From contig JAOAEJ010000080.1 of the NCBI GenBank assembly GCA_026416815.1, forward strand, positions 1-64,000: 64,000 bases of DNA. The letters run 5' to 3'. Of this stretch, positions 11,793-38,239 are shown one piece after another. Under the pieces are notes generated by a model. That model was not told where the DNA came from, did not search any database, and saw only the letters and a list, made by a program, of their open reading frames with translations. Each line of letters begins with the position of its first letter. Position 1 is the first letter of the stretch. This DNA is from Clostridia bacterium (GTDB lineage: Bacteria; Bacillota; Clostridia; Acetivibrionales; DSM-2933). The translations under genes and the position numbers were made by a program.

Positions 11793-11803
11793 GGTATAAT
11801 TAA

Positions 11804-14149: not shown

Positions 14150-16036
14150 ATGGATGAACAAACTAAGCTATTAATAGATGCTTCAACAAAAATAGTTGCT
14201 CAAAATCTTGAGAAAATTTGCAAGTGTATTGTTAATTTAGGTAAAGACGCTATTAATAACTCAAGAATTGGTAATGGAGAAGCTTTTAGTAGATACTTGC
14301 AATCTGCTATTGAAAAATATAGTAAAGTAAAAACTATATTATACAAACACACACCAGTATATCTTTATGATTTTTATATAAATGTTGATTTAATTAGCGA
14401 TGGTAATGTGATAAGTACGGAGAATGTTCTAGATATATTGGAGAGAGATAGATATGTAATTATAACTGCGTCTGGTGGAGCAGGAAAATCAACACTATTT
14501 AAGCATTTATTTTTAAATACTATAGAAAAAACTACAAAGATACCAATCTTTGTTGAGCTAAAAGATTTAAACAATAACGAGTATACATTAAAGGAATGCA
14601 TTTATAATACGATTTCGAACTTAAAATTTGATCTTGAAGAAAAATATTTTTATGAAGCACTTGAAAGTGGATGTTTTGTGTTTTATTTTGATGCTTTCGA
14701 TGAAATACAAGAAAATAAAAAGAATTTAGTAGCCAAGGAGATAATTGATATTAGTGATAAGTATGATAATAATTACTACATTGTTTCATCAAGACTTAGT
14801 GACAGGTTTGTTGGATGGAATAGATTTAAAGAAATGAATGTAATTCCTTTGAGTAAAGAGCAGTCGGTTGAATTAATAAAAAAATTGAAATATGATGACA
14901 TGTCTAAAGAAAAGTTTTTAATTGAGCTTGACCAGAATTTATATGATAAGCATTCTTCATTTGCCTCTAACCCACTACTTTTGACTATAATGTTAATGAC
15001 ATTTGATCAGTATGCTAAAATTCCTGAAAAGGTGCATTTGTTTTATCAGCAAGCTTTTGAAACATTGTACTCGAAACATGATGCAACAAAAGGTGTGTTT
15101 AGCAGACAAATGGGAACTGATTTAGCTATTGATGATTTTACTAAAATTCTTTCTAGTTTTTGTACTTTAAGTTATATTGATTCAAACACAACTTTTGATA
15201 ATGGCACTGTTATAGAATATTTAAGTAATGCTAAAAAACTTGAAGGTATTAAGTTTAATGTGGAAAATTTTAAAAGAGACTTGATTGAATCCGTATGTAT
15301 TTTAATTCAAGATGGTTTAGGATACGCCTTTACACATAGATCCTTTCAAGAATATTTTACCGCCAGATTTATATCTAATTTATCTTCAGAAGAGCAACAG
15401 GATTTACTAAAAAAGCTTTTTTATAAAAAACCAGCAAGTATAAATATAGATATTGTTTTTGATATCTTATTTGACATAAAAAAAGAAGCGCTAGAAAAAA
15501 ACTTTATAATACCCTTATTAGATGAATTAAAAACGATAACGTCATCCACCTGTATTGAGGGGCAGTACTTCAAATACTTGAAATTAATCTATAATTCAAT
15601 TGAACTTGATTATGTTCCTGATGATATTAATGGCAAGTACTATGATGAAGAACAAATTGTATATTCAGTTCGACTTGCAGGAATAAAGTATTATGAATTG
15701 GTGAATTTCGTAAATAGGAAATATGTTGGATATCCATCCTCGGATGTTTGCTTGCCGTTCTCTTCTAAATCTAACGATAAAGAATTCATTAGAAAACATG
15801 GGATTTCTGATGAACACAAACCTATCCCAAGTATAAACTTTGCCACAGTAAAATTTAAGTCTGAGATATTTTATAAGATTTTAGAACTAGCATTTTCGGA
15901 AGTAGAAAGTTTTCACTTCTGCTTATCTATATTGGAATTCTTGGAAAACGAACATGTTGAAAAAAAACAGACAAGAGATTTATTGTTTACTTTCAAAGAT
16001 AGTACTGGGCAGTTTAGGTTCAGCAATAACCTATAG
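14150..16036 (+). CDS. NACHT-domain NTPase, probable anti-phage protein
   Basis: 628 residues. The N-terminal 80 residues are helical. The NACHT core follows: Walker A ASGGAGKST at about 107-115, Walker B FYFDAFDE at about 178-185 (the DxxDE form), sensor YYIVSSRLSDRF, then NPLLLTIMLM, and the winged-helix motif FTHRSFQEYFTARF near 395. About 200 C-terminal residues have no evident repeats and may be a short sensing domain. Bacterial NACHT proteins (STAND NTPases) commonly act as abortive phage defence, oligomerising when they sense a phage product. The gene is clearly more AT-rich than the flanking biosynthetic genes and stands alone beside toxin genes, which suggests horizontal gain. No separate effector gene is adjacent, so the effector could be the N-terminal region. 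Confidence 0.85.
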   Translation: MDEQTKLLIDASTKIVAQNLEKICKCIVNLGKDAINNSRIGNGEAFSRYLQSAIEKYSKVKTILYKHTPVYLYDFYINVDLISDGNVISTENVLDILERDRYVIITASGGAGKSTLFKHLFLNTIEKTTKIPIFVELKDLNNNEYTLKECIYNTISNLKFDLEEKYFYEALESGCFVFYFDAFDEIQENKKNLVAKEIIDISDKYDNNYYIVSSRLSDRFVGWNRFKEMNVIPLSKEQSVELIKKLKYDDMSKEKFLIELDQNLYDKHSSFASNPLLLTIMLMTFDQYAKIPEKVHLFYQQAFETLYSKHDATKGVFSRQMGTDLAIDDFTKILSSFCTLSYIDSNTTFDNGTVIEYLSNAKKLEGIKFNVENFKRDLIESVCILIQDGLGYAFTHRSFQEYFTARFISNLSSEEQQDLLKKLFYKKPASINIDIVFDILFDIKKEALEKNFIIPLLDELKTITSSTCIEGQYFKYLKLIYNSIELDYVPDDINGKYYDEEQIVYSVRLAGIKYYELVNFVNRKYVGYPSSDVCLPFSSKSNDKEFIRKHGISDEHKPIPSINFATVKFKSEIFYKILELAFSEVESFHFCLSILEFLENEHVEKKQTRDLLFTFKDSTGQFRFSNNL

Positions 16037-18311: not shown

Positions 18312-19649
18312 TTAAATTCTAACTCTTTTGAATCTTGCATTAAATAGTTCATCGTCTACAATCTGGACTTTTATAGGAATTTTATGAGGCTCTAGCTTAT
18401 CCTTGCAAAATTCCTGTATCCTGTCCCTTAGTGACGATAAATCCTCTTTTTCAATAAGGTTCACTTTGGCGGTTACGATGTTGCCCAGTATGATGTTGGG
18501 TTCTCCTTTTACAGCAACATCTTTGATTCCCGGCATTTGGAGCAGTATCTCCTCAACCTCGGCAGGGTAGACCTTTTGTCCTCCTACATTAATTATCTCG
18601 GATTTTCTTCCGAGAATTTTGACATAATCTCCATCAACTACAACCTGGTCCTGTGTATTGAACCAACCCTCCTCATCAAAAGGGCTGGGGGCATTGAGGT
18701 ACCCAAGCATTGCTGAGTCGGCTTTAATGTACAAAATATCGTCAACAATTTTTGTTTCAAACCCTTCACCGCCTATTTTGACCCATAAGGAATCGGAGCT
18801 TTTGGATTTTGCCCGCATTATTCCTAGCTCGGACAGGCCGTAAGTTTGTCTCAAATGCACGTTGGGAAAAACTTCGTTTAATTTCTTTAATACGCTTTCG
18901 GGCATAACTTCGGTGCCATAGGAAATTATCTTCAATGATGTAAGGTCATAATTTTTGTACTGCTCTGACAACAGCAGCAGGTTTAAAAATGTGGGGGAAG
19001 CTGGCAGAAGCTCTACTTTATGCTTTTCTATTACCTCACAGATGTCTTCCGGCTTCCGGCTCCCGGATGTTATTACGGTACCGCCATTGGACAGGGTGTG
19101 AAATAGAGTGTTGATTCCGCCTATATGGTCAAGCAGCAGAAAAGTCAGTGTTCTGAGAGGATCCCTATTAATCTTGTACTTTTCAAGAAGTTTTGTGAAG
19201 TTGTGTATGACTCCCTTCGCTTTTCCGGTGGAACCGGAGGTAAACAGGATAAGACCAGGCTCGTCCATTGTGTTTAGCTTCCTTATCAACTCGTTTTCCT
19301 TAGACGAGCTAAATTGTGATGATTGATGTCCATCATCACCTAAGATATACAGCCTATCGGCCTCGGCTATTTTTAGAAACTCTTCTTTTTGACCGCTGGT
19401 AGCTGAAGATAGAGGCACAACAATATTTTTGTTTTCTATAAGTGCAAGGATGACCGCACACATCTCAGGGGAGTAATCACCTTCAACAGCTACTACCTCT
19501 CCAAACTTTACATTGTCTGCTGCTACTATTTGCGTCCATTTATGGTAATACTCAAGTATGTGCCTGTATGTAAAAGACTGATTATTATATACTATAGCCT
19601 CAAGATCGGAAAAGTCATTAAACCTTTCGATCAACCAGGAAATCGACAT
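18312..19649 (-). CDS. Acyl-AMP ligase (AMP-binding, stand-alone)
   Basis: 445 residues, short for the family because the N-terminal subdomain is compact. A3 is LILFTSGSTGKAKGV, A5 is QTYGLSE, and the hinge region is ILGRKSEIINVGGQKV. The C-terminus ends FNARFKRVRI, which keeps a KxxR pattern where the catalytic A10 lysine belongs. It activates a carboxylic acid with ATP and passes it to a thiol, most simply to the ACP encoded 20 bases downstream. This resembles starter-loading ligases of lipopeptide and PKS clusters more than a housekeeping acyl-CoA synthetase. The ATG follows GGGAGGG. Confidence 0.9.
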   Translation of the reverse strand: MSISWLIERFNDFSDLEAIVYNNQSFTYRHILEYYHKWTQIVAADNVKFGEVVAVEGDYSPEMCAVILALIENKNIVVPLSSATSGQKEEFLKIAEADRLYILGDDGHQSSQFSSSKENELIRKLNTMDEPGLILFTSGSTGKAKGVIHNFTKLLEKYKINRDPLRTLTFLLLDHIGGINTLFHTLSNGGTVITSGSRKPEDICEVIEKHKVELLPASPTFLNLLLLSEQYKNYDLTSLKIISYGTEVMPESVLKKLNEVFPNVHLRQTYGLSELGIMRAKSKSSDSLWVKIGGEGFETKIVDDILYIKADSAMLGYLNAPSPFDEEGWFNTQDQVVVDGDYVKILGRKSEIINVGGQKVYPAEVEEILLQMPGIKDVAVKGEPNIILGNIVTAKVNLIEKEDLSSLRDRIQEFCKDKLEPHKIPIKVQIVDDELFNARFKRVRI

Positions 19650-24316: not shown

Positions 24317-27300
24317 ATGAATACAAAACAATACTACCCTTTGACCCACCCACAGAAGAATATTTGGTATACAGAAAAGGTATACCCCAATACTGGGGTG
24401 GCAAACATTGCATTGACATTAAAGTTTGAGGGACAGTTGGACTGTCTGCTGCTAAACAAGGCAGTAAATGAAGTGGTACGCCTTAATGAAGGTATGCGGC
24501 TCAGAGTAGTAGAGATTGACGGTGAGCCCATGCAGTATGTTGCGGAGTACAGGCAAGCAGGGTTGGAAACTATAGAATTTTCAGGATTTCAGGCACAGGA
24601 AAATTATAAGATTTGGGTTGACAATCAGACAAGGGCACCTTTTGAGTTTATTGATTCGGATTTATTCTATTTTGCTATTGTCAGGTTTGAGAATAACGAA
24701 GGCGGCTTGTATATAAAGCTGCACCATATGATAACCGACGCATGGGGAATGGGACTTATAGTTAACCGGATAAATGATTTGTATGTAAAGTTAAAAAGTG
24801 GTGCTGATGTTTTATATACACAAAATCCATCCTATATTGAGTATGCTTTAAAGGAGCAGGAGTACAAGAAATCCCATGGTTTGTGGAAGGATGAGGGATT
24901 TTGGAGTGAGAGATTCGCCACTGTACCTGAAGTTGCAGGTTTAAAGACGATAGGCACTAATTACGGCAGTATAGATGCCAATAGGAAGGTTTTCCTGCTG
25001 TCCGATGAACTGACATCGGAGATTAAAGCGTTTTGCAAACAGACAGGTGTTTCGGTGTATGGATTGTTTCTCTCTATTATGTATGTATACATAGCTAGGA
25101 TGACTTCCAAGGAAGATATGACTATAGGGACGATTATTTATAACAGGTCTGGTGTGAGAGAAAAGGACACTGCCGGCATGTTTATCAGTACTGTACCTTT
25201 TAGAATAACTGGGGGAAGTGATTGGGGTTTTAGTTCCTTATTACAGGCTGTTGCTAAAGACCTTAGAGGAGTACTTAAACACCAGAGATATCCTTACGAT
25301 TTGCTGCTGCAAAAGTTAAGGGAGAAAAACAATAAGCTGGACAGGCTTTTTGATGTTATAGTGTCCTATCAGAATATAGTATTTGATGTTGAGGAAGAGT
25401 GGCATTTTAATGGGTATGAGGTCACTCCTCTTGCTATGCATATAAGCGATAGAGGTGATAAGGGGCAGCTGAAGCTGGAGGTTGATTACCGGGCTGAATT
25501 GTTTTCCGATGAAGAAATAGGCCAGATATTGAAGCACTTGTTGAACCTTACTCGATGTTCGATAAAGAATCCGGTAAAACCTATATCAAAGTTGGAGCTG
25601 CTGACTGAAGAGGAAAGAAAACAGGTTTTATTTGAATTTAACGATACGAAAGTGCAGTACGACAGCACTAAGACTATACAGAAGTTGTTTGAAGAACAGG
25701 TGGAAAGAACACCGCATAATACGGCTTTAGTTTTCCACGATACACTGATGACATACGAACAATTGAATCAGCGTTCCAATCAGCTTGCAAGGGCTTTGAG
25801 GAAAAAGGGTGTCAGACGGGATAGTATTACAGGTATTATGGTTAACCGCTCAACTGAGATGATGATTGCCATAATGGGTGTTTTGAAGGCTGGAGGAGCA
25901 TACCTGCCCATAGACCATGAGTACCCGGCCGACAGGATAAATTACATGCTGGAGGACAGCGAAGCAGGTGTTTTGCTGACAGACCGAAAGTTCGCTGGTG
26001 GGGTTGATTTTAACGGAGAGTTTGTCTATCTTGATGACGAAGAGATTTTTACCGGGGACTCGTCAAATCTGAATATAATCAATGATTCCGGAGACCTTGC
26101 CTATGTGATATATACATCAGGTTCAACAGGCAAGCCCAAAGGGGTTATGCTTGAGCATAGGGCGGTTGTTAATTTTATCAAGGGGATAACTGACAGGATA
26201 GAATTCCTGCCTCATAAGACAATACTGGCTTTAACTACTATTTCCTTTGATATATTTGTTTTGGAAACGCTACTTCCACTTACAAAAGGTCTTAGAATTG
26301 TAATAGCTGACGAAAGTCAATATAGAGATCCAGAGCTGCTAAATGAGCTGATTATAAAAAACAATATTGATATGCTGCAAACTACTCCTTCAAGGATGCA
26401 AATGCTGGTGAATTACCCGGACAGCCTGGGCTGCTTTGCAAACCTGAAGGATATTATGATAGGCGGTGAAGCCTTCCCGCAAGCACTGCTTGAGAGCATA
26501 AAAAAACTGTGTAGTGCACGCATTTATAACATGTACGGACCTACCGAGACTACAGTATGGTCGACAATAAAGGAACTCACACACGCCGATGAGGTAAACA
26601 TAGGCAAGCCCATAGCAAACACCCAGATTTACATACTGGATAAACACAACAACTTACAGCCCCCAGGCATACCCGGAGAACTCTGCATAGGCGGAGACGG
26701 CTTAGCCCGAGGCTACTTAAATAGACCCGAACTAACAGCAGAAAAATTCATACCGATACCGTTTACTAACGAACAACTGATAATTGATAATGGAGAATTG
26801 GAAGGTGATAACTGTAAATTGTCATCTGTCAATTGTCAACTGCTCTACAAAACTGGTGATCTTGCAAGGTGGCTCCCTGATGGCAGTATTCAATGCCTTG
26901 GGAGGATGGATTATCAGGTTAAGGTAAGGGGCTTCAGGATAGAGCTAGGGGAGATTGAAAGTCAGCTTCTGAAGCATGAGTTGGTTCGTGAGGCAGCTGT
27001 AACTGCCAGGGATGACGGAAGTGGCAACAAGTATATCTGTGCATATTTTGTTGGGGAAACAAGTTTAGCTGTGGATGAATTGAGGGAGTTTTTGTCTTTG
27101 GAGTTGCCGGACTATATGATACCGTCATATTTTGTACAGCTTGAACGGCTTCCGGCGACGCCTAACGGAAAGATTGACCGGAATGCGCTTCCCGAGCCTG
27201 TGGCTGATGTGGTTACAGGAATTGAGTATGTACCGCCGAGGAATGATGTGGAGGAAAGACTTGTAGAGGCTTGGCAGGAAGTACTTGGCAGGAGCAGAGT

Positions 27301-27595
27301 AGGGATAAATGAAAGCTTCTTTGCACTTGGGGGAGATTCTATAAAGGCTGTGCAGTTGATATCTTATCTTCAGAGGTACAATTTGAAGGTGAGAACCAGG
27401 GATATTTTCCGGTGTGCTACCATTGCGGGCTTGAGTGGTTGCGTGGAAGTATGTGGGGATGTGAAGGAGAGTACTAAGGAGTCCGGCTCGTGTAGTGTTG
27501 GGATGGAGAATACTATTGGGAGCGGTTTGAAGGGGTTGGATTCTGAGGATATAGATGATATTTTTAGTGCGCTGGAAGATTGTTTTGGGGATTGA
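24317..27595 (+). CDS. NRPS module 1: C-A(Gly)-T with C-terminal COM-type donor
   Basis: 1092 residues. The condensation domain covers about 1-430 with HHMITDAW, an altered HHxxxDG (A for G). The adenylation domain covers about 455-950, with A3 VIYTSGSTGKPKGV and A5 NMYGPTE. The pocket residues read by alignment to GrsA are D-I-L-Q-M-G-M-V-W(-K), close to the glycine code. The carrier domain has GGDS with S1008. The C-terminal tail EDIDDIFSALEDCF resembles the TycA-type communication donor, matching the next protein's N-terminus. Because a C domain opens the line, it likely acylates Gly with an ACP-bound starter. The A domain carries an in-frame DNA repeat at 26771-26842 between the LTAEKF and LYKTGDLARW segments. 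Confidence 0.94.
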   Translation: MNTKQYYPLTHPQKNIWYTEKVYPNTGVANIALTLKFEGQLDCLLLNKAVNEVVRLNEGMRLRVVEIDGEPMQYVAEYRQAGLETIEFSGFQAQENYKIWVDNQTRAPFEFIDSDLFYFAIVRFENNEGGLYIKLHHMITDAWGMGLIVNRINDLYVKLKSGADVLYTQNPSYIEYALKEQEYKKSHGLWKDEGFWSERFATVPEVAGLKTIGTNYGSIDANRKVFLLSDELTSEIKAFCKQTGVSVYGLFLSIMYVYIARMTSKEDMTIGTIIYNRSGVREKDTAGMFISTVPFRITGGSDWGFSSLLQAVAKDLRGVLKHQRYPYDLLLQKLREKNNKLDRLFDVIVSYQNIVFDVEEEWHFNGYEVTPLAMHISDRGDKGQLKLEVDYRAELFSDEEIGQILKHLLNLTRCSIKNPVKPISKLELLTEEERKQVLFEFNDTKVQYDSTKTIQKLFEEQVERTPHNTALVFHDTLMTYEQLNQRSNQLARALRKKGVRRDSITGIMVNRSTEMMIAIMGVLKAGGAYLPIDHEYPADRINYMLEDSEAGVLLTDRKFAGGVDFNGEFVYLDDEEIFTGDSSNLNIINDSGDLAYVIYTSGSTGKPKGVMLEHRAVVNFIKGITDRIEFLPHKTILALTTISFDIFVLETLLPLTKGLRIVIADESQYRDPELLNELIIKNNIDMLQTTPSRMQMLVNYPDSLGCFANLKDIMIGGEAFPQALLESIKKLCSARIYNMYGPTETTVWSTIKELTHADEVNIGKPIANTQIYILDKHNNLQPPGIPGELCIGGDGLARGYLNRPELTAEKFIPIPFTNEQLIIDNGELEGDNCKLSSVNCQLLYKTGDLARWLPDGSIQCLGRMDYQVKVRGFRIELGEIESQLLKHELVREAAVTARDDGSGNKYICAYFVGETSLAVDELREFLSLELPDYMIPSYFVQLERLPATPNGKIDRNALPEPVADVVTGIEYVPPRNDVEERLVEAWQEVLGRSRVGINESFFALGGDSIKAVQLISYLQRYNLKVRTRDIFRCATIAGLSGCVEVCGDVKESTKESGSCSVGMENTIGSGLKGLDSEDIDDIFSALEDCFGD
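26771..26842 (+). repeat. Palindromic/heptad repeat inserted in frame in the Gly A domain
   Basis: The segment runs from GAACAACTGATAATTG through TCTGTCAATTGTCAACTG. It encodes a linker (IDNGELEGDNCKLSSVNCQL) absent from ordinary A domains, which go almost directly from the NPF region to (L/M)Y(R/K)TGDL. Copies sit at the same protein position at 30508 and 36951. Confidence 0.85.
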
Positions 27596-27607
27596 GGTGC
27601 TTGTTCC

Positions 27608-27756
27608 GGCTGTGAAAGAGTTTGCCTACAGAAAGCTTCAAAGCCAGGGGAAAAATCCTTCAATTGGCTAAGGTATTTCCGAAAGCCGGATTTTTCCCCT
27701 GGGAGCTGGGCTTCGTGGGTCGGTGAAGCTTTCTTCCGACAAACTATTTCACAGCC
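27608..27756. ncRNA. 149-bp nested-palindrome element A (structured RNA or MITE-like)
   Basis: Three nested arm pairs. Outer 17-bp arms (27608-27624 and 27740-27756) match at 16 of 17 positions. Middle AGAAAGCTTCA (27630-27640) pairs with TGAAGCTTTCT (27724-27734). Inner 15-bp CCAGGGGAAAAATCC (27644-27658) pairs perfectly with 27688-27702. The left side has a 3-base gap between the inner stems while the right has 21 bases containing GGGTC. Element B at 38260 has the same length and layout. Whether it acts as RNA or DNA is unknown. Confidence 0.6.
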
Positions 27757-27985
27757 TGCTGCTGGTTGTAGATAGGACTGGGGATGTGGTGCAAATGCCT
27801 CTAGAGTTGGCTGCCTTTTGCCTAAATAGAGGTTATTCATAAATAGGGGTGCAGGGGGCGATAGCCCGCCTGCTGGCCGCAACGCGGCCAAATAACAATT
27901 ACCTTCCCTCGGGGAGGGGCAGGGGTGGGGGCAAATAATTTAACTTCGCCTTAATTTAAATCCATACATTTTATGGGGGTCACAC
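27757..27985. other. GC-rich spacer before the second NRPS gene
   Basis: Holds a small hairpin TGGCCGC/GCGGCCA (27874-27880, 27884-27890) and a G-rich tract at about 27909-27934. No gene is seen. GGGGGT before the ATG at 27986 is the ribosome binding site. Confidence 0.45.
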
Positions 27986-30900
27986 ATGCAAACTTTTAAA
28001 AAGGAAGACGTACAGGATATTTATTTTTTATCACCTATGCAGGAAGGGATGTTGTTCCATTCGCTGCTTAACACTGATTCTGAGGCTTATTTCCAGCAGC
28101 TTTCGTTTGATTTGACTGGAGATTTGGATATTGAACTCTTTGAAAAGAGTTTTAACTATATTGTTCAAAGATATGACATTCTCAGGACGGTGTTTGTGTA
28201 TGAAAAGGTTAAGAGAAGCGTTCAGGCTGTTTTGAAAACACGTCGTTCAAGTATATGCTTTGAGGATATATCACATTTAGACACTTGTAGTAAAGCGGAG
28301 TTTATTGAGGAGTTTAAGAGAAAGGACAGGGAAAAGGGCTTTAACCTGTCCAAGGATATGCTTATAAGGCTTGCGGTATTGAAAACATCCCCGCAGGCCT
28401 ACAGTGTTGTATTAAGCTTTCACCATATAGTTCTGGATGGCTGGTGTATTGGAATTGTTGTGAGGGAGCTTTTTGAAGCGTATAGGAGCTATAGGGACAA
28501 CAGGCCTGTGGAATTTGGAGCGGTACCTTCCTACAAGCAGTTCATAAACTGGCTGGAGGCAACGGATAAGAAGTCCGCTGCCCTTTACTGGGAAAAGTAC
28601 CTTGAGGGATATGCGCAAAAGGCTGCGCTGCCAAGGTTTAAGAAGTCGGGAGAGAGTGGAGAATATGTCCAGGACGAGATTAGCTTTATGCTTGAGGAAG
28701 GCTTGACAAAAGGGCTGGAGGGTATTGCAAAAGATAGCTTTGTAACCTTAAATACCGTATTTCAAGCAATATGGGGTTTGATACTCCAGAGATACAACAA
28801 TACCCGTGATGTAGTATTTGGTGCGGTTGTGTCGGGAAGACCTACTGACATAAGCGGCTTTGAAAAAATGGTGGGGCTGTTTATAAATACAATTCCTGTA
28901 CGTATAAGCTGTGATGGCGGAGAAAGCTTTGCTCAATTGATAAAAAGTGTGCAGCAGCAGACTTTAGCTTCGGAGGAATACAGTTATTTTCCCCTTAATG
29001 AAATACAGGCAAAAACGGAATTGAAACAGGATTTGATTGAAAACATTGTTGCTTTTGAAAACTATCCTCTGGATAAAGAGGTTATATCTTTGACGGGAGG
29101 AAAGGCTTCTGGGCTTGATTTAAGCAATGTCCAGATGTTTGAACAGACTACCTACGACTTGAATGTTCAGGTTATTCCAGGCAGCGAGTTGATGGTAAAA
29201 ATCAAGTTCAACTCCTCTGTCTATGAAAGAGAGACCATAGAAGCTGTAGAAGGTCATTTCAGGAAAATAGCCCGGACTATTATTGCGAATCCTGCTGCAG
29301 CTATTAAAGATATAGAGATTTTACAGGAAGAAGACAAAAGAAAATTATTGGTGGAGTTTAACGACACAGCTGCGGACTATCCGAGGGATATGACTATCCA
29401 CGGCATTTTTGAGCAGCAGGTGAGGAAAACGCCGGACAACATTGCAGTGGTGTTTGAGGACACTTATTTGACATACATGGAGCTGAACGATAAGGCCAAC
29501 AGCCTTGCCCTTATTCTGAGGGAAAAGGGAGTAAAGGCAGACAGTATCGTAGCTATTATGGTTGAGCGTTCGGTTGAGATGATATTGGGTATCATAGCCA
29601 TATTGAAGGCGGGAGGCGCATACCTGCCGGTAGACCCTACCTATCCGACTGATAGAATAAAATACATGATCGAGGACAGCGGCACCGGGATACTGCTGAC
29701 TCAAACCGAGTTGAAAGGTAGAGTAGAGTTTAACGAAATAATGATAGACCTGAAGGATGAAAGCCTGTACAGTGGCGTGTGTTCAAAAATTGAACATATA
29801 AATAAGCCCTCCGACATGGCCTATATAATCTATACCTCCGGTACAACAGGCAAACCCAAAGGAGTAATGATAGAACATGGAAACGTAGTCAGACTGATGT
29901 TTAATGACAGGATACAGTTTGATTTTAATGACAATGACGTTTGGACATTGTTCCATTCAATGTGCTTTGATTTTTCGGTATGGGAAATGTACGGCGCACT
30001 GCTGTACGGCGGAAAGCTTGTGGTAGTTTCCAAACTGACCGCAAGGGACACTGGGGAATACCTGAAGCTCTTGAAAAAGGAAAAAGTAACGGTATTAAAC
30101 CAGACCCCTACAGCATTTTATAACCTGATAGATGAAGAACTGAAATGTAGTGATAAAGAGCTTAGCGTAAGATACGTAGTATTCGGGGGCGAGGCATTAA
30201 AGCCTGTAAAGCTCAAAGCATGGAGACAAAAATATCCTGCGGTGAAGCTCATAAACATGTACGGCATTACTGAGACAACAGTACACGTCACATACAAGGA
30301 AATAACAGAACACGAAATAACCTTTAATATTTCAAACATAGGTAAGCCCATACCAACATTAACTACTTACATAGTAGACAGCGATATGAACCTGCTCCCA
30401 ATCGGTGCTGCTGGTGAAATGTGCGTAGGCGGCGACGGCGTAGCCCGCGGCTACTTGAACAGACCCGAACTAACAGCTGAAAAATTCGTCCAAAACCCAT
30501 TTATTAATGGAAAATGGAAAATTGATAATGGAGAATTGGAAGAAAGCAACTGTCAATTGTCCTCTGTCACCTGTCAACTGCTTTATCGCTCCGGTGACCT
30601 TGCACGTATGCTGCCTAATGGTGAAATGGAGTACCTTGGGAGGATAGATCATCAGGTAAAGATAAGAGGCCACAGAATAGAGTTAGGGGAGATTGAGACT
30701 CGTATTTTAAAGCACGTCTCAATAAAAGAAGCTGTTGTAATAGCCAGAGAAGATAAGGATGGAAACAAATACCTCTGTGCATACATTGTGTCTGAAGTAA
30801 GCATGACGGTTTCCCAGCTCAGAGAGTATCTATCGAAGGATTTGCCTGAGTACATGATACCGTCCTACTTCATACAGTTGGATAAAATCCCTATGACCTC

Positions 30901-33900
30901 AAACGGTAAGGTGGACAGGAAAGCCCTGCCTATTCCCGATGGAAGCATAAATACCGGAACCGAATACAAGGCACCGGGAAACGAATTGGAAGAAAAGTTC
31001 GCTAAAATATGGGCTGAGGTTTTGGGTGTTGAAAAGCTTGGGGTTAATGAAAACTTCTTTGATTTGGGCGGAGATTCTATAAAGGCTATAAGCCTTATAA
31101 GCAGGATGAACAAGGCTCTTAACTCCAATATCCAGATGAAGCATATCTATACCAGCCCAACTATAGAACAAATTGCAGCATTAATGGACACGGCGGCTCA
31201 GCCGGAGGTTGAGTACGACTTAAAGCAGGGCTTGAAGCTTATTGAAGATGTAAAGCAGGGTATTCTTAAAGATGAAAAACAAGCTGTGTTATTGCCGGAA
31301 GGTTATGAGGATTTTTACCCTTTAAGCCAGATACAGCAGGGTATGATTTTCTATTCAAAGCTAAAGCCTGAAGAGCCGATATACCATGACCAGTTTGTAT
31401 ATAATATAAAATTCAAAAAGTTTGACTTGAAGGTTTATCTTGAGACACTGGATTTACTTACTCAAAGGCACCCTATAATGAGGACGGTTTTTAATAGTGA
31501 ATGCTTTAGCAGGGATATCCAGATAGTTCACAAAAGGCTGCTTCCTGAGGTGGTTTTGGAAGATATATCGTGTATGTCCTATGAAGATAGGGGAATGTAC
31601 ATTAAGAACTACCTTCAGAAGGATTTGAAAAACAAATTCAAGTTTGACAATGATCTGATGTGGAGAATGAGAGTATTCAAGCACGATACCGAAAGCTACA
31701 GTATAGTGCTGTGCTGTCAGCATGCTATTCTTGACGGGTGGAGTGTGGCTACCTTTATCAGTGAGCTTCTTGAGATTTATAATACATTGATAGAAGGCGG
31801 AAAGTATGAGGTCACGAAGCTAAAAAGCAGTTATAAGGATTATGTGGCTATAAACCTAAGCAGGAGAATAGCACCGAAAAGTCAGGAGTTCTGGAAGGAT
31901 ACTTTAAAGGGATTTACACGCAACAAGCTGCCCTTTAATATTTCCAGCAAAAAAATTGACGATGTAAGAGGAAGTAAGATATTTAGAAGAAACTTAAGCA
32001 AAGAGCTGCTGCATTCGTTGGAACAGCAGGGGAAGAAGTACGGGTGTACTCTTAAGGAGCTTTGCCTGAGTGCTTACATATACCTGCTAGGTATTATTAC
32101 TATCGAAAATGATATTGTAACAGGGGTGGTAACCCATGACAGGCCGGTTATTGAGGATGGAGAGAGGATTTTAGGCTGCTTCTTAAATACTGTGCCTATG
32201 AGAGTTCGTCTAGGTGAAACTATACATAAGCTGGAACTGCTAAAAGGCGTAAAGGACTTCCTCGTCAAATCTAAAAGCAATGAGCTGTTCTTGGCTGATA
32301 TAGCTGCAATTGTAGGAGAAGTTAATACCGGCACCGGCAATCCGATTTTTGATACGTTGTTTAACTTCATTGACTTCCATGTCTTGAAGAATGCTCAAAT
32401 AAAGAATGCAATAAGTTCAGCGGATGAAAGCCTGCAAATGGATTCAAATGAGATGACCAATACACTGTTTGACCTTGAGGTTTCAAGGACTTTGGACAAT
32501 TTCGGTTTGCAGATTAAGTATTCGCCCAACTACTTTTATGATAATGATATTGAAACAGCCTTCAACCTGTACGGCAGGATTCTTGAAAAATTCGCCGATG
32601 ACAGGTGTGAGGTGTTTGAAGTTGAAACTCTGATAACTGACGAAGAGAAACAAAGTATTTTATATGATTTTAACAATACCGATGTTGAGTATGCTTACCA
32701 CAAGACAATGCACCAGTTGTTTGAAGAGCAGGCAGAACGGACTCCCGATAACGTAGCGCTGGTATTTGAAGGCAAGAAGCTTTTATACAGGGAATTGAAC
32801 GAGAGGGCAAACCAGCTGGCAAGGCTCTTAATTGATAAGGGGGTCAAATGCGGCGACAATGTGGCATTGATTGCGGACAGAAGCTTTGAGATGATAATAG
32901 GAATGCTGGGAATTCTGAAGGCCGGAGGGGCGTATGTTCCGGTAGACCCTGCATACCCTGCAGCAAGGCGGGAGTATATAGCAAACAACTCAAATGTATC
33001 GGCTGTTGTGGTTGATAAGGAATATGACATAGATTTTGAGAATGTAGTTAAGATAGATTACTCGGTGATGGATGGGTACTCTGTTGAGAACACAGGACTC
33101 CACAAGGATTCCACCGACCTGGCGTACATAATTTATACTTCAGGTTCCACAGGGCTGCCCAAGGGTGTAATGATTGAGCACCATTCGGCTGTAAACCTTA
33201 TTAGCTGGGTAAACAAAGAGTTTAATGTGGGTGAAAAGGACACTCTGCTGTTTATTACTTCCATGTGCTTTGACTTATCGGTGTACGACATCTTTGGTAT
33301 GCTTGCGAGCGGCGGCAGGATTGTAATAGCAAGGAAAGAGCAGGTACAGGACCCTGATGAACTGAAGAAGCTGTTGAAAGACGAAAGGATTACCTTCTGG
33401 GATTCAGTGCCTTCAACCATGAACTATATAGTAAATACACTGGAAGATAGCCGCGAGGCGTATATCCAAGAGGATTTGAGATTAGCTTTCATGAGCGGTG
33501 ACTGGATTCCTGTTAAACTGCCCGACAGGATAAAGAAATACTTCCCCAACTGCAGGGTTATAAGTCTCGGCGGTGCGACTGAGGGAACTGTGTGGTCTAT
33601 TTATTATCCTATTGAAAAGGTGACAGAATATCAGACCAGCATACCTTACGGCAGGCCTATGGATAACAACTATTTTTACATACTGGATGACAATAAAAGC
33701 ATTGCGCCTTATGGAGTGGCTGGGGAGCTTTACATAGGCGGCGTGGGTGTTGCCAGGGGATACGCCAATGACCCTCAGAAGACTGAGGCTTCATTTGTAA
33801 AGGATAGGTTTGCAAGACGTAATAATGCAATGATGTATAAGACGGGAGACCTTGGAAGGATGCTCCCTGACGGTAATATTGAGTTTTTGGGAAGAAAGGA

Positions 33901-36900
33901 CCATCAGGTAAAGATAAGAGGCTACAGGGTGGAGCTTGGAGAGATTGAGAACCAGCTTCTCAAGCACCCTTCCATAAAGGAAACGGTTGTCATCGACAGG
34001 GCAGATTCAAGCGGCAATAAATATCTGTGTGCCTATATGGTGTCCGACAGGGAATTGACTCCAACCGAGCTAAGGGACCACCTCTCGAAAGAGCTGCCCG
34101 ACTATATGATACCTTCATATTTTATCAGGCTGGATAAACTGCCGCTGACCCCTAACGGAAAGATGGACAGAAAAGCTCTGCCTGAGCCGTCGGAAAGCGT
34201 CAATACCGGGACGGAATACGTAATGCCTGCCAACTCTACCGAGGAAAAGCTCCAGAAGGTATGGCAGGAGATACTTGAAATAGAAAGAATCGGTGTGACT
34301 GATAACTTCTTCGAGCTTGGAGGGCACTCCTTGAAGGCCACTTCCATGGCTTCAAGGATACACAGAGAACTTGATGTTGAGATTCCTTTGAGAGAGGTGT
34401 TCAGGCTTACCACTATAAGAGAGCTTGCGGAATATATAGACGAAGCTAACAAGAATATCTACTCATTGATGGAGCGGGTAGCGGAAAGAGACTATTACCC
34501 TGTATCGTCAGCTCAGAAGAGGATGTTCCTGTTAAACAGGATAGACAGCACCGGCACCAGCTACAATCTGCCTAATGTAATGACGGTTGAGGGAATGTTA
34601 AGCAAGGAACGTTTTGAGAAGGTGTTTAAAGCACTTATATCCAGGCATGAGGCCCTAAGAACCTCCTTTGAGATTGTAGAAGGGGAGCCTGTACAGAGGA
34701 TACACAAATGTGTGGATTTTGAAGTGGAGTATGATGAACTGTGCAGTGGTGAAAGGGAAGCTATAAAGGAATTCATACGCCCATTTGATTTGAGCAAAGC
34801 TCCTTCGATGAGGATTAAGCTTGTAAAGCTGGCACAGGACAGGCATTTGATGTTGTTTGATATACATCATATTGTTTCTGACGGTATGTCGGCGGGGATT
34901 CTGGTAAAGGAATTTACCGAGCTGTACAACGATAGAGAGCTTCCTGCTTTGCGGATACAATACAGGGATTTTGCTGTGTGGCAGAATAATATTCTCAAAT
35001 CAAATGCTATTGAGCAGCAGGAGCAGTACTGGCTTGATGTGTTTAAAGAAGAAGTGCCTGTACTCAATATGCCTACCGATTACCCAAGGCCGTCGGTTCA
35101 GAACTTCGATGGAGACAGGATTAGGTTTGAGATAAACAAAGACCTGACGGAAGGGCTACACAATATATGCTCTAAGACCGGGGCAACAATGTATATGGTG
35201 CTGCTGGCGGCATATAACGTTTTACTGTATAAATATACCGGACAAGAGGATATAGTAGTAGGTTCACCTATAGCAGGAAGGAATAATACCGAGCTCGACA
35301 ATTTAGTTGGAATGTTTGTAAATACTCTTGCCATGCGGAATTGCCCTCAGGGTACCAAAGCATTTTATGAGTTCTTAGAAAATGTAAAAGAGAATTCACT
35401 AAAGGCATATGAAAACCAGGATTACCAGTTTGAAGAGCTGGTGGACAAGCTGGATTTAGCCAGAGATTTGAGCAGAAATCCATTGTTTGATACTATGTTT
35501 GTGCTTCAAAACGCCTATGCTCAGCCTATAGAGGTTGAAGGGCTCAAACTGCTTCCTTATGAGTTTGAAAACCCTACAGCTCAGTTTGACCTGAAGCTAA
35601 GTGCAGTGGAAAAAGATGGTACTGTAGAATGTGAACTGGAATTCTGTACAAAGCTCTTTGCTGCTGAAACAATGGAAAGGCTGGCAGGACATCTGGTGAA
35701 CATAGTAAGAGCAGTGGTTGATAATCCTGCAATAAGGCTGTATGAAATAGACATGCTTTCGAAGCAGGAGAAAAGGCATATTCTTGTTGACTTCAATAAT
35801 ACAGAGGCTGTTTATCCGAAGCATAAGACGATTCATGGGATGTTTGAGGAACAGGTCTGCAAGGTTCCTGACAACACGGCGGTTATTTTTGGTGAGAGCA
35901 GTCTTACATACAGTGAATTGAATGAGAAGTCCAACCAGCTTGCAAGGGTTCTGAGGGAAAAGGGTGTAGGGGCAGAAAGCATAGTAGGCATAATGTTGGA
36001 ACGTTCTGCCGAAATGATGATTGGCATAATGGCTATATTGAAAGCCGGTGGCGCTTACCTGCCCATAAGTCCTTCATACCCTGCTGATAGGATACAATAC
36101 ATGCTGGAAGACAGCGGCACAGCAGTGCTGCTGGTACAAAACCGCTTGCAGGACAAGGTGGAGTTTGCTGGTCATGTAATAGACTTGAACGATACTAGTC
36201 TGTACAGGGGTGAAGGCTCAAACCTTGGTCCAATAGCTGGACCTAACAATCTGGCTTATGTGATATACACCTCCGGCTCGACAGGAAAGCCTAAGGGTGC
36301 GATGATAGAGCACTATTCGGTAATAAACAGGATTAACTGGATGCACAAAAGCTATCCTATAGGGTATGAGGATGTAATTCTGCAGAAGACTCCGTTTACC
36401 TTTGACGTATCGGTGTGGGAGTTATTCTGGTGGTCGTTTATCGGGGCAAAGGTATGCTTCCTTGAACCGGGAGGGGAAAAGGAACCGGCTAAAATTGTTG
36501 AAGCCATATATAAACATAAAGTTACTACAATGCATTTTGTACCGTCTATGTTAAGTGTATTTTTAGAATACGTAGAAGGATTGGATGATTATGATAAACT
36601 GGCAAGCCTGCGGCAGGTATTTGCCAGCGGTGAGGCGCTAAGCCTCCAGCAGGTTTACAAGTTCAACAGGCTGCTTAACAAAAACTGCGGTACCAAGCTG
36701 CACAACCTGTACGGACCTACCGAAGCTACTGTGGACGTATCCTATTTCGATTGCTCAACAGGGGAGGATTTAAGGTGTGTACCTATAGGAAAGCCTATTG
36801 ACAATATAAAGCTCTACATAGTGGACAAGAACAACAAACTCCAACCAATAGGAGTCCCCGGTGAACTATGTATCTCCGGCGATGGCGTAGGCCGCGGCTA

Positions 36901-38239
36901 CCTGAACAGGCCGGAGCTGACCGCAGAAAAGTTTGTACCAAACCCGTTTGCAACTGGAAAATTGCAACTGGAAAATGGAGGATTAGATAACTGTCAATTG
37001 TCAACTGTCAATTGTCAACTGATGTATCGGACCGGTGATCTTACAAGGTGGCTCCCCGATGGAAACATTGAGTTCCTGGGCAGGATAGACCATCAGGTTA
37101 AGATAAGAGGCTTCAGGATTGAGTTGGGTGAGATTGAGAGGCAGCTTGCGGCTTATGAAGGTATTAGGGATTGTGTGGTTGTTGTGAAGGAACGGGGCTC
37201 CGATGACAAGTATCTTGCTGCATATTATGTGGCGGATGAGGAGATTAAGGTGCCGGAACTTATGATGTACCTGTCCCAAAGCTTGCCTGACTACATGGTT
37301 CCGGGGGTTTATGTGCATATGTCACAATTACCTCTGTCTCCTAATGGAAAGGTTGACAGAAAGGCTTTGCCGGAGCCGGAGTTTAACCGCTCAGGTATGG
37401 AGCTGGAGTATGCGGCACCTTCTACTGATATTGAAAAGGTGTTGGCGGGTATATGGCAGGATGTATTGAAACTCGAGCTGATAGGGGTGAATGACAATTT
37501 CTTTGAGCTTGGAGGAAACTCTCTGAAGCTGGTTACTATGCATATGCAGCTTGAGAAGCATTATCCGGGAAGGGTGAAGGTGACAGACCTGTTTGCATAC
37601 TCTACGGTTTCAAAGCTGGCTCAGTTTATTGAGAAGGGTCAGGGTGGTGAGCAGGTTGAAGTAGTAATTAAGACGCAGGAGTTTCCTTCGGAATACTTCA
37701 CGCAGGTAGGTGAAAGCAGCGAAGGCAGTGTGCTTAAGCTCAAGCTGGATGACGCTGCGTATCAGGGGCTTATGTCAATGTGCGGTGCAAATGATGTTGA
37801 ACTGCATGATGTGCTTGTTGGGGCGTTTATGTACCTGATGTCTGAGATTACCGAGAAGCAGGGTGTTGCTTTACAGACCACAACCGGGTATGGGAGAGTT
37901 GTACCTGTTGAGGTGGATTTTGAGGGTGTTGAGGATTTGGGGCAGTTGTACAGGTTGGTTAGAGATAGGCGTATGACTGGGGTGGATTCTCACGAGGTAC
38001 AGGTTCTAGATACTGTGATTGCGGGCAAGAGGGATAGTGAAGCTGCTGTTCTGGTGTGTGGTGATATTGGGGTGTCTAGTTCTATGCGTACGGTGTTTGA
38101 TGTTATTCTTAGGTTTAGTGAGGATGGCGGAGTTACGTTTGCTTGTGAGTATGATGGTGCCAGGGTTAGGAGAAGGAAGGTTGAGGAGCTGCTGTACGCT
38201 TATGTTAAGCTGATTAGGATTATGTTGGAGAATGATTAG
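27986..38239 (+). CDS. NRPS modules 2-4: C-A(Thr)-T, C-A(Cys-like)-T, C-A(Ser)-T, plus half C domain
   Basis: 3417 residues. The N-terminus (KEDVQDIYFLSPMQEGMLF) is very like the TycB acceptor for NRPS1. Module 2: C with HHIVLDGW; A pocket D-F-W-N-V-G-M-V-H, the Thr code; carrier S1031. Module 3: C with QHAILDGW, first His replaced by Gln; A pocket D-L-Y-D-F-S-L-V-W, nearest Cys types but uncertain; carrier GGHS near 2110. Module 4: C with HHIVSDG near 2294; A pocket D-V-W-H-F-S-L-V-D, the Ser code; carrier GGNS near 3175. Residues about 3215-3417 resemble only the C-terminal half of a condensation domain (LHDVLVGAFMYLM, DLGQLYRLVRDRR, FDVILRFSE) and lack the HHxxxDG half. No epimerase or thioesterase is present, so the chain must pass to the downstream KS. 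A domains 1 and 3 carry the in-frame repeat. Confidence 0.95.
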   Translation: MQTFKKEDVQDIYFLSPMQEGMLFHSLLNTDSEAYFQQLSFDLTGDLDIELFEKSFNYIVQRYDILRTVFVYEKVKRSVQAVLKTRRSSICFEDISHLDTCSKAEFIEEFKRKDREKGFNLSKDMLIRLAVLKTSPQAYSVVLSFHHIVLDGWCIGIVVRELFEAYRSYRDNRPVEFGAVPSYKQFINWLEATDKKSAALYWEKYLEGYAQKAALPRFKKSGESGEYVQDEISFMLEEGLTKGLEGIAKDSFVTLNTVFQAIWGLILQRYNNTRDVVFGAVVSGRPTDISGFEKMVGLFINTIPVRISCDGGESFAQLIKSVQQQTLASEEYSYFPLNEIQAKTELKQDLIENIVAFENYPLDKEVISLTGGKASGLDLSNVQMFEQTTYDLNVQVIPGSELMVKIKFNSSVYERETIEAVEGHFRKIARTIIANPAAAIKDIEILQEEDKRKLLVEFNDTAADYPRDMTIHGIFEQQVRKTPDNIAVVFEDTYLTYMELNDKANSLALILREKGVKADSIVAIMVERSVEMILGIIAILKAGGAYLPVDPTYPTDRIKYMIEDSGTGILLTQTELKGRVEFNEIMIDLKDESLYSGVCSKIEHINKPSDMAYIIYTSGTTGKPKGVMIEHGNVVRLMFNDRIQFDFNDNDVWTLFHSMCFDFSVWEMYGALLYGGKLVVVSKLTARDTGEYLKLLKKEKVTVLNQTPTAFYNLIDEELKCSDKELSVRYVVFGGEALKPVKLKAWRQKYPAVKLINMYGITETTVHVTYKEITEHEITFNISNIGKPIPTLTTYIVDSDMNLLPIGAAGEMCVGGDGVARGYLNRPELTAEKFVQNPFINGKWKIDNGELEESNCQLSSVTCQLLYRSGDLARMLPNGEMEYLGRIDHQVKIRGHRIELGEIETRILKHVSIKEAVVIAREDKDGNKYLCAYIVSEVSMTVSQLREYLSKDLPEYMIPSYFIQLDKIPMTSNGKVDRKALPIPDGSINTGTEYKAPGNELEEKFAKIWAEVLGVEKLGVNENFFDLGGDSIKAISLISRMNKALNSNIQMKHIYTSPTIEQIAALMDTAAQPEVEYDLKQGLKLIEDVKQGILKDEKQAVLLPEGYEDFYPLSQIQQGMIFYSKLKPEEPIYHDQFVYNIKFKKFDLKVYLETLDLLTQRHPIMRTVFNSECFSRDIQIVHKRLLPEVVLEDISCMSYEDRGMYIKNYLQKDLKNKFKFDNDLMWRMRVFKHDTESYSIVLCCQHAILDGWSVATFISELLEIYNTLIEGGKYEVTKLKSSYKDYVAINLSRRIAPKSQEFWKDTLKGFTRNKLPFNISSKKIDDVRGSKIFRRNLSKELLHSLEQQGKKYGCTLKELCLSAYIYLLGIITIENDIVTGVVTHDRPVIEDGERILGCFLNTVPMRVRLGETIHKLELLKGVKDFLVKSKSNELFLADIAAIVGEVNTGTGNPIFDTLFNFIDFHVLKNAQIKNAISSADESLQMDSNEMTNTLFDLEVSRTLDNFGLQIKYSPNYFYDNDIETAFNLYGRILEKFADDRCEVFEVETLITDEEKQSILYDFNNTDVEYAYHKTMHQLFEEQAERTPDNVALVFEGKKLLYRELNERANQLARLLIDKGVKCGDNVALIADRSFEMIIGMLGILKAGGAYVPVDPAYPAARREYIANNSNVSAVVVDKEYDIDFENVVKIDYSVMDGYSVENTGLHKDSTDLAYIIYTSGSTGLPKGVMIEHHSAVNLISWVNKEFNVGEKDTLLFITSMCFDLSVYDIFGMLASGGRIVIARKEQVQDPDELKKLLKDERITFWDSVPSTMNYIVNTLEDSREAYIQEDLRLAFMSGDWIPVKLPDRIKKYFPNCRVISLGGATEGTVWSIYYPIEKVTEYQTSIPYGRPMDNNYFYILDDNKSIAPYGVAGELYIGGVGVARGYANDPQKTEASFVKDRFARRNNAMMYKTGDLGRMLPDGNIEFLGRKDHQVKIRGYRVELGEIENQLLKHPSIKETVVIDRADSSGNKYLCAYMVSDRELTPTELRDHLSKELPDYMIPSYFIRLDKLPLTPNGKMDRKALPEPSESVNTGTEYVMPANSTEEKLQKVWQEILEIERIGVTDNFFELGGHSLKATSMASRIHRELDVEIPLREVFRLTTIRELAEYIDEANKNIYSLMERVAERDYYPVSSAQKRMFLLNRIDSTGTSYNLPNVMTVEGMLSKERFEKVFKALISRHEALRTSFEIVEGEPVQRIHKCVDFEVEYDELCSGEREAIKEFIRPFDLSKAPSMRIKLVKLAQDRHLMLFDIHHIVSDGMSAGILVKEFTELYNDRELPALRIQYRDFAVWQNNILKSNAIEQQEQYWLDVFKEEVPVLNMPTDYPRPSVQNFDGDRIRFEINKDLTEGLHNICSKTGATMYMVLLAAYNVLLYKYTGQEDIVVGSPIAGRNNTELDNLVGMFVNTLAMRNCPQGTKAFYEFLENVKENSLKAYENQDYQFEELVDKLDLARDLSRNPLFDTMFVLQNAYAQPIEVEGLKLLPYEFENPTAQFDLKLSAVEKDGTVECELEFCTKLFAAETMERLAGHLVNIVRAVVDNPAIRLYEIDMLSKQEKRHILVDFNNTEAVYPKHKTIHGMFEEQVCKVPDNTAVIFGESSLTYSELNEKSNQLARVLREKGVGAESIVGIMLERSAEMMIGIMAILKAGGAYLPISPSYPADRIQYMLEDSGTAVLLVQNRLQDKVEFAGHVIDLNDTSLYRGEGSNLGPIAGPNNLAYVIYTSGSTGKPKGAMIEHYSVINRINWMHKSYPIGYEDVILQKTPFTFDVSVWELFWWSFIGAKVCFLEPGGEKEPAKIVEAIYKHKVTTMHFVPSMLSVFLEYVEGLDDYDKLASLRQVFASGEALSLQQVYKFNRLLNKNCGTKLHNLYGPTEATVDVSYFDCSTGEDLRCVPIGKPIDNIKLYIVDKNNKLQPIGVPGELCISGDGVGRGYLNRPELTAEKFVPNPFATGKLQLENGGLDNCQLSTVNCQLMYRTGDLTRWLPDGNIEFLGRIDHQVKIRGFRIELGEIERQLAAYEGIRDCVVVVKERGSDDKYLAAYYVADEEIKVPELMMYLSQSLPDYMVPGVYVHMSQLPLSPNGKVDRKALPEPEFNRSGMELEYAAPSTDIEKVLAGIWQDVLKLELIGVNDNFFELGGNSLKLVTMHMQLEKHYPGRVKVTDLFAYSTVSKLAQFIEKGQGGEQVEVVIKTQEFPSEYFTQVGESSEGSVLKLKLDDAAYQGLMSMCGANDVELHDVLVGAFMYLMSEITEKQGVALQTTTGYGRVVPVEVDFEGVEDLGQLYRLVRDRRMTGVDSHEVQVLDTVIAGKRDSEAAVLVCGDIGVSSSMRTVFDVILRFSEDGGVTFACEYDGARVRRRKVEELLYAYVKLIRIMLEND
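30508..30580 (+). repeat. In-frame palindromic/heptad repeat, copy 2 (Thr A domain)
   Basis: TGGAAAATTGATAATGGAG and GAATTGG are followed by heptad-like CAACTGTCAATTGTCC, then CTGTCAACTG. It encodes IDNGELEESNCQLSSVTCQL at the same linker as the copies at 26771 and 36951. Confidence 0.85.
36951..37021 (+). repeat. In-frame palindromic/heptad repeat, copy 3 (Ser A domain)
   Basis: Contains the cleanest heptads: CAATTGT, CAACTGT, CAATTGT, CAACTG, preceded by GGAAAATTG-type units. It encodes NCQLSTVNCQL at the same A-domain linker as the other copies. Confidence 0.88.

Follow-up and report, generated by a model that had tools for sequence, protein, structure and literature searches.

A heptad repeat of non-coding DNA forms an in-frame loop in NRPS adenylation domains of a Clostridia bacterium

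Heptanucleotide STRR repeats of heterocystous cyanobacteria are heptad arrays dispersed between genes, and the Rickettsia palindromic elements (RPE), about 150 bp long, have entered many unrelated genes and encode a conserved peptide. The latter are short, partly palindromic, interspersed DNA found between genes as well as in frame within genes (PMC10969869). The TAACTGA heptamer repeats of Beggiatoaceae, cyanobacteria and Bacteroidetes form mostly intergenic heptad arrays, including some in ribosomal protein operons (MacGregor 2015, PMC4679880). They are direct repeats without predicted structure, stop-free in one orientation with a peptide period of LSVISYQ, and the few copies inside ORFs lie mostly at protein ends (PMC4679880). 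In case of NRPS enzymes, recombination in the core of the adenylation (A) domains is well documented and the unit exchanged is the substrate-selecting core (PMC8097286). A search of the open-licence literature has found neither a non-coding heptad-hairpin repeat that recurs at the same loop in unrelated A domains of a single genome, nor heptamer repeats in Clostridium, nor in-frame insertions in adenylation domains.

In our study, a stretch of 64,000 nucleotides from a Clostridia bacterium (contig JAOAEJ010000080.1 of assembly GCA_026416815.1; hereafter the window) was analysed. It carries two NRPS genes (Table 1), after which come PKS and PKS-NRPS genes. Of the five NRPS A domains in the window, three have a loop from EKFxxNPF to YRTGD that consists of repeat DNA. 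These three inserts lie where the original prediction had placed them and, as it had claimed, they belong to one DNA repeat family, matching one another in a whole-genome search with E values of 1e-13 and 5e-11. As the original prediction rightly said, the insert is absent from the A domain of the PKS-NRPS protein and from the Cys-like one at 33.8 kb, the second A domain of NRPS gene 2 (about 32.8-34.0 kb). The carrier domains have open frames with no stops, match Pfam AMP-binding and score above the TIGR01733 cut-off; they are NRPS adenylation domains, with the AMP-binding fold and the core motifs intact despite the insert. Elsewhere in the window, a stand-alone adenylation-like gene with a weak TIGR01733 match of 84 bits adjoins the NRPS cluster (18510-19571, minus strand). 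Upstream of the cluster, a carboxynorspermidine synthase-like gene and an adjacent carboxynorspermidine decarboxylase gene (nspC) are present at 10593-12946, and a 628-aa protein encoded at 14150-16036 weakly matches the NACHT antiphage protein EruA, far under the cut-off.

Table 1. Coordinates of the NRPS genes, the repeat-made loops and their parts in the window, and of inverted heptad arms in related genomes.
Feature	Position	Strand	Remarks
NRPS gene 1, C-A-T, 1092 aa	24317..27595	+	ORF and Pfam Condensation, AMP-binding, AMP-binding_C, PP-binding; A domain 1 bears the insert
NRPS gene 2, three C-A-T modules, 3417 aa	27986..38239	+	ORF and Pfam; A domains 1 and 3 bear the insert
Candidate recombination tract, 20 codons upstream of copy 1	26705..26764	+	Shared with the flank of copy 2
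Repeat-made loop, copy 1, TNEQLIIDNGELEGDNCKLSSVNCQL, 26 codons	26765..26842	+	Profile E 5e-23; hairpin-forming
Left module of copy 1, TAATTGATAATGGAGAATTG	26781..26800	+	Same 20-mer at C62:47009 (intergenic) and C83:26896 (NRPS)
Right module of copy 1, 5 heptads	26808..26842	+	Unit is that of the rRNA spacers
Partner side of the candidate tract, 20 codons upstream of copy 2	30443..30502	+	
Repeat-made loop, copy 2, INGKWKIDNGELEESNCQLSSVTCQL, 26 codons	30503..30580	+	Profile E 4e-23
Left module of copy 2, AAATTGATAATGGAGAATTG	30519..30538	+	
Right module of copy 2, 5 heptads	30546..30580	+	Has the CCTCTGTC unit of rRNA-spacer copies
Repeat-made loop, copy 3, ATGKLQLENGGLDNCQLSTVNCQL, 24 codons	36950..37021	+	Profile E 9e-20; no stable hairpin
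Right module of copy 3, 5 heptads	36987..37021	+	Regular CAATTGT/CAACTGT heptads
Inverted arms in the rpmJ-rpsM gap	G009:C10:14769-14976		
Inverted arms in the rpmJ-rpsM gap	G020:C40:56094-56442		
Inverted arms in the rpmJ-rpsM gap	G023:C57:18478-18848		
Inverted arms in the rpmJ-rpsM gap	G027:C14:13690-13849		
Inverted arms in the rpmJ-rpsM gap	G029:C20:72137-72429		
Inverted arms in the rpmJ-rpsM gap	G026:C62:9111-9177		

Between NPF and (L/M)Y(R/K)(T/S)GD the three carriers have 26, 26 and 24 codons as compared to about 5 in ordinary domains, and from KF to Y they measure 32, 32 and 30 residues, against mostly 11 (at most 13, in a few fewer) in the ordinary domains of the genome. The predicted extra loop is real, although it adds a net 21, 21 and 19 residues and not the 20-25 originally given, and the whole loop from NPF to LY/MY is made of the repeat. 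Each insert is composed of two parts. The left one, of AATTGATAATGGAGAATTG type, is built of units resembling heptads (AAAATTG-ATAATGG-AGAATTG); in the right one, of ATAACTGTCAATTGTCcTCTGTCAACTGTCAACTG type, five heptads of about 35 nt follow the order ATAACTGTC-AATTGTC-CTCTGTC-AACTGTC-AACTG with variants. The heptads encode a peptide with a seven-residue period, NCQLSTV. The original prediction had described the seven-base units as running through all three frames of this strand without a stop; this nearly holds for the right part, which is open in the frame used and meets one TAA, at the left edge, in one of the other two, whereas the left part has stops in the other frames. Similarly, the TGA stops ascribed to the reverse strand are present in most frames and not in all. 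The term palindromic fits the copy at 26771-26842, where left and right modules pair in a hairpin of -19.4 kcal/mol (z -3.95), and hairpins are also formed by intergenic relatives of the repeat; on the other hand, the copy at 30508 folds weakly (z -1.7) and in the copy at 36951 the modules do not pair, leaving no hairpin.

The genome census by pattern, BLAST and profile searches has brought out further copies. The right-junction pattern occurs in six A domains of this genome and in none of 57 other genomes of the order. Besides the three window domains, the carriers are three domains of a second NRPS region on contig C83 (22270, 26863 and 44044, minus strand), which lie outside the window and beyond the claims of the original prediction. 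Their versions are shorter, lengthening the loop by 7, 12 and 7 residues respectively, and the right module counts two heptads (14 nt) where the window copies count five; the difference of three heptads equals 21 nt or 7 codons, and so the reading frame is kept. The genome has about 33 A domains, in which all six carriers bear the repeat at the same loop and the others have 5-7 residues there. All other convincing copies found in this genome are non-coding, and the searches gave no coding copy outside the A-domain loop. Right modules are present in rRNA operons, adjoining 5S and 23S genes (C31, C34, C36 and C68), at contig ends with a similar leader sequence (C22 and C69) and once in an intergenic region of C45, while C62 has an intergenic left module directly after a stop codon. 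Within this genome, left and right modules combined in this order were seen in A domains only. As several spacer copies lie at contig ends (C22, C31, C34, C68 and C69), the counts of rRNA operons and of repeats are probably underestimates. On C34 (8660-9000, minus strand), the spacer between 23S and 5S has two opposed heptad arms, one beside each gene, which pair over about 22 bp; the 341 nt fold at -86.4 kcal/mol (z -4.7). This stem may be a pre-rRNA processing stem or simply inserted repeats.

These copies bear on the idea that the heptads arose within the loop itself, by slippage and expansion of GGAAAA-like codons, the likeness to intergenic DNA meaning only that both are simple heptad arrays. 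The graded lengths of the six loops (+7, +7, +12, +19, +21 and +21 aa), in heptad steps, agree with such a local origin. However, the right module and the unit of the rRNA spacers agree in length (35 nt, 5 heptads), in the order of heptad variants and in the ATAACTGTC start, and an identical left-module 20-mer is intergenic at C62, which makes a local origin very unlikely.

The original prediction had suggested looking for copies between genes in the host and its relatives, and such copies were found in both. BLAST with one insert detected the repeat in 11 of 30 genomes and a profile built from four copies in 17 of 60, both counts including this genome; a single genome (G023) gave 46 profile matches. 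The relatives' copies that were examined lie between genes: beside tRNA genes, before rpsM, after rpmJ and before start codons. Near-full-profile matches with both arms are also intergenic in the relatives, and many of them fold as hairpins. Two weaker profile matches of G001 lie inside open frames, are unlike the repeat and are probably due to chance. In several genera of the order, the rpmJ-rpsM gap was observed to hold inverted heptad arms around interior sequence of differing length (Table 1). When 291 genomes of the class were searched with the translated heptads, the matches were mostly short, stop-broken frames. Four long frames with heptads were examined as possible coding instances and set aside, three of them as leaders preceding a plausible start codon and the fourth (39% identity) as an ordinary coiled-coil-like coding stretch.

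Like the Rickettsia palindromic elements, the present repeat is found both between genes (rRNA spacers, C45 and C62) and in frame (six NRPS domains), at a place which the protein tolerates. Unlike them, it belongs to another lineage, measures about 60-75 nt, has heptad arms, encodes no conserved peptide and enters NRPS A domains at one site instead of many unrelated genes; in hairpin formation the window copies range from clear through weak to none, and several intergenic relatives fold well. The proposed likeness to these elements thus holds for the outcome but not for membership, given one protein family, one site and much shorter heptad arms: the repeat is RPE-like in outcome and is not an RPE. 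The TAACTGA heptamers are the nearest known repeat type, just as the Rickettsia elements are the nearest known outcome. With the former it shares a mostly intergenic location, a stop-free orientation and a seven-residue peptide period. It differs in having AATTGTC/AACTGTC/CTCTGTC and AxAATTG units in place of a direct TAACTGA array, in its lineage, and in forming two-arm hairpin units inside a catalytic domain, recurrent at one homologous site. The STRR repeats are likewise dispersed intergenic heptads and, by description, are set apart by sequence and phylum; as regards MITEs, the arms are inverted in several copies here, and neither a target-site duplication nor a related transposase came to light.

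The site of insertion was further analysed in A domains generally. The A domains of relatives have long loops of 15 to 42 residues at the same site, unrelated in sequence to the repeat, and the site between the EKFxxNPF and YRTGD motifs is therefore an indel-tolerant loop. It was considered whether these long loops are copies of the same or of another dispersed repeat; this was ruled out, as each of the two that were tested occurs only once in its genome. They are L107 (G007:C1:3384972-3385262) and L150 (G021:C9:133175-133492), unrelated linkers of 33 and 42 residues respectively. The domain of this genome nearest to them (L087) has the ordinary 11 residues. The original prediction that the repeat is not part of the fold was borne out, because solved A domains aligned to the window domain have a gap at the insert point and the insert is a low-confidence coil in a model of the 30.5-kb domain. 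This AlphaFold model, made with an input of five window sequences, matches solved A domains with Z of 22-24, and the insert (residues 346-368) has pLDDT below 50; since the mean pLDDT of the whole model is only 60.7, exposure of the loop at the surface is indicated rather than proved. Homologous A domains without the insert are present in the same genome.

A peptide of this kind encoded by heptad codons was not found in A domains of 84,980 species genomes by an exact pattern scan ([C/Y]QL-[LMI]Y-[KR etc.]-TGD in heptad codons), a collection that may omit near relatives. Two matches, in Buttiauxella and Acetofilamentum, are not A domains and were taken as chance. The original prediction was to fall if distant genera showed these residues under unrelated codons and the genome had no further copies of the repeat; the scan gave no such A domain, and non-coding copies do exist.

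Comparison of the three window copies by codon position has shown that their differences are evenly spread in the loop (17/16/21 at first, second and third positions), as against 4/6/30 for the 20 codons upstream of it and 16/9/29 for those downstream. Judged from this even distribution against the upstream counts, the loop drifts without coding constraint, behaving as non-coding DNA, and is younger than the split of the domains. A functional peptide, with the (D)NCQLS-V-NCQL segment selected, for example, as a docking or regulatory loop, could explain why the frame is kept in six domains and the C-terminal CQL/YQL retained. It is hardly credible in view of the even codon-position differences, most of which change the amino acid (32 of 39 differing codons), and of the unrelated sequences of the relatives' loops. 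Position and shared sequence might also suggest that the loop was present in the common ancestor of these A domains and lost from the rest. This account, with its many losses, is effectively refuted by the codon-position comparison, as the loop DNA is more alike than are the flanks at third codon positions, where these approach saturation; moreover, no homologous insert was detected in related genomes or, by pattern, in any of the 84,980.

The relationship of the carriers was studied with trees of 83 domains, built separately from the parts upstream and downstream of the loop. The six carriers are scattered, requiring six changes on each half-tree, which is the maximum; well-supported branches force at least four changes on the upstream half-tree, and the poorly resolved downstream half-tree forces only one. 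The 30.5-kb domain is sister (support 99) to C26:19670, which has an ordinary loop. Third-codon agreement between carriers reaches 0.66 within the loop, falls to 0.46-0.47 over the 20 codons to each side of it and is 0.31-0.37 beyond these. When compared with 400 random sets of six domains, the carriers' value was reached by none in the loop, by none at -40 to -20 codons and by 10 at -20 to 0 codons, and downstream of the loop the sharing was not significant. When 378 domain pairs were ranked by similarity over the 20 codons preceding the loop, carrier pairs took the first three places (76-77, 85-86 and 77-92), whereas their core regions rank only 97th, 147th and 214th. The upstream flanks of copies 1 and 2 (Table 1) are 82% identical, synonymous sites included, and stand second to third among these pairs. 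Carriers with unrelated cores share some 60 nt before the loop, which is the pattern that short-tract recombination would leave; since this flank is a conserved motif, the sequence comparison gives moderate evidence for such tracts. Spread between A domains by recombination, as originally proposed, is the best fit to the scattered carriers, the third-codon agreement and the shared upstream flanks. The further suggestion that the insert marks domain-swap breakpoints is weakly supported, with carrier similarity raised just upstream of the loop but not significantly downstream.

As the upstream flank is a conserved motif, repeated insertion has also to be weighed, in which a mobile repeat reached this loop in several A domains by separate events, through target preference or because only this loop is tolerant. 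Two-arm units are dispersed between genes in the relatives, so that ready-made units could insert repeatedly into what are unrelated domains. Furthermore, the CCTCTGTC unit that marks the rRNA-spacer copies recurs in copy 2, whereas the heptads of copy 3 are regular, as though the two had come from different sources, and the downstream flanks are not common to the carriers. Against this stand the restriction of coding copies in this genome to one loop of one domain family, the confinement of the left-right combination to A domains, and the upstream flanks common to carrier pairs with unrelated cores. In the carrier loci of this one genome, target-sequence duplication was also not seen. On balance, independent insertions are a possible but rather unlikely explanation.

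We consider it probable that an intergenic heptad-hairpin repeat entered the indel-tolerant loop once or a few times and was then recombined between A domains. On this view, each insert is a copy, lying in frame, of a non-coding repeat that is interspersed in genomes of this bacterial order and has two arms of 7-bp units, the right arm being ATAACTGTC(AATTGTC-CTCTGTC-AACTGTC)AACTG, and some 60-75 nt in total. One or a few copies would have landed between A6 (..EKFxxNPF) and A7 (YRTGD), in a loop already tolerant of length changes in this order, and would have been retained because that orientation is stop-free in frame. We infer that the loop cassette, with a short upstream stretch, was then copied to other, unrelated A domains in two NRPS regions (C49 and C83), through homologous recombination over short tracts lying between conserved motifs, and this direction of spread belongs to the same reading. 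Afterwards, the cassette would have drifted as unconstrained sequence; slippage may have removed three heptads from full right arms to give the short ones in frame, and the loop is presumably harmless to the enzyme. As in the described recombination of A-domain cores (PMC8097286), unrelated A domains of one genome would exchange segments between conserved motifs, but here a short surface-loop cassette of non-coding origin would be the part that moves. It is quite unlikely that the cassette serves as a recombination handle, whereby identical heptad DNA at one homologous point promotes module exchange and helps to diversify the peptides.

The presence of repeat DNA in the coding frame is real and well supported. 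Our study reflects that non-coding repeat DNA has been built into a large enzyme, in six unrelated domains and each time at precisely the same homologous loop. Being recognisable and presumably neutral, the insert serves as a tag and can mark short A-domain recombination tracts that are otherwise hard to see. The A-domain site accepts 7-21 extra residues here and more than 30 in relatives, and these outcomes can help to trace the evolution of NRPS and to select sites for insertions in engineering work.
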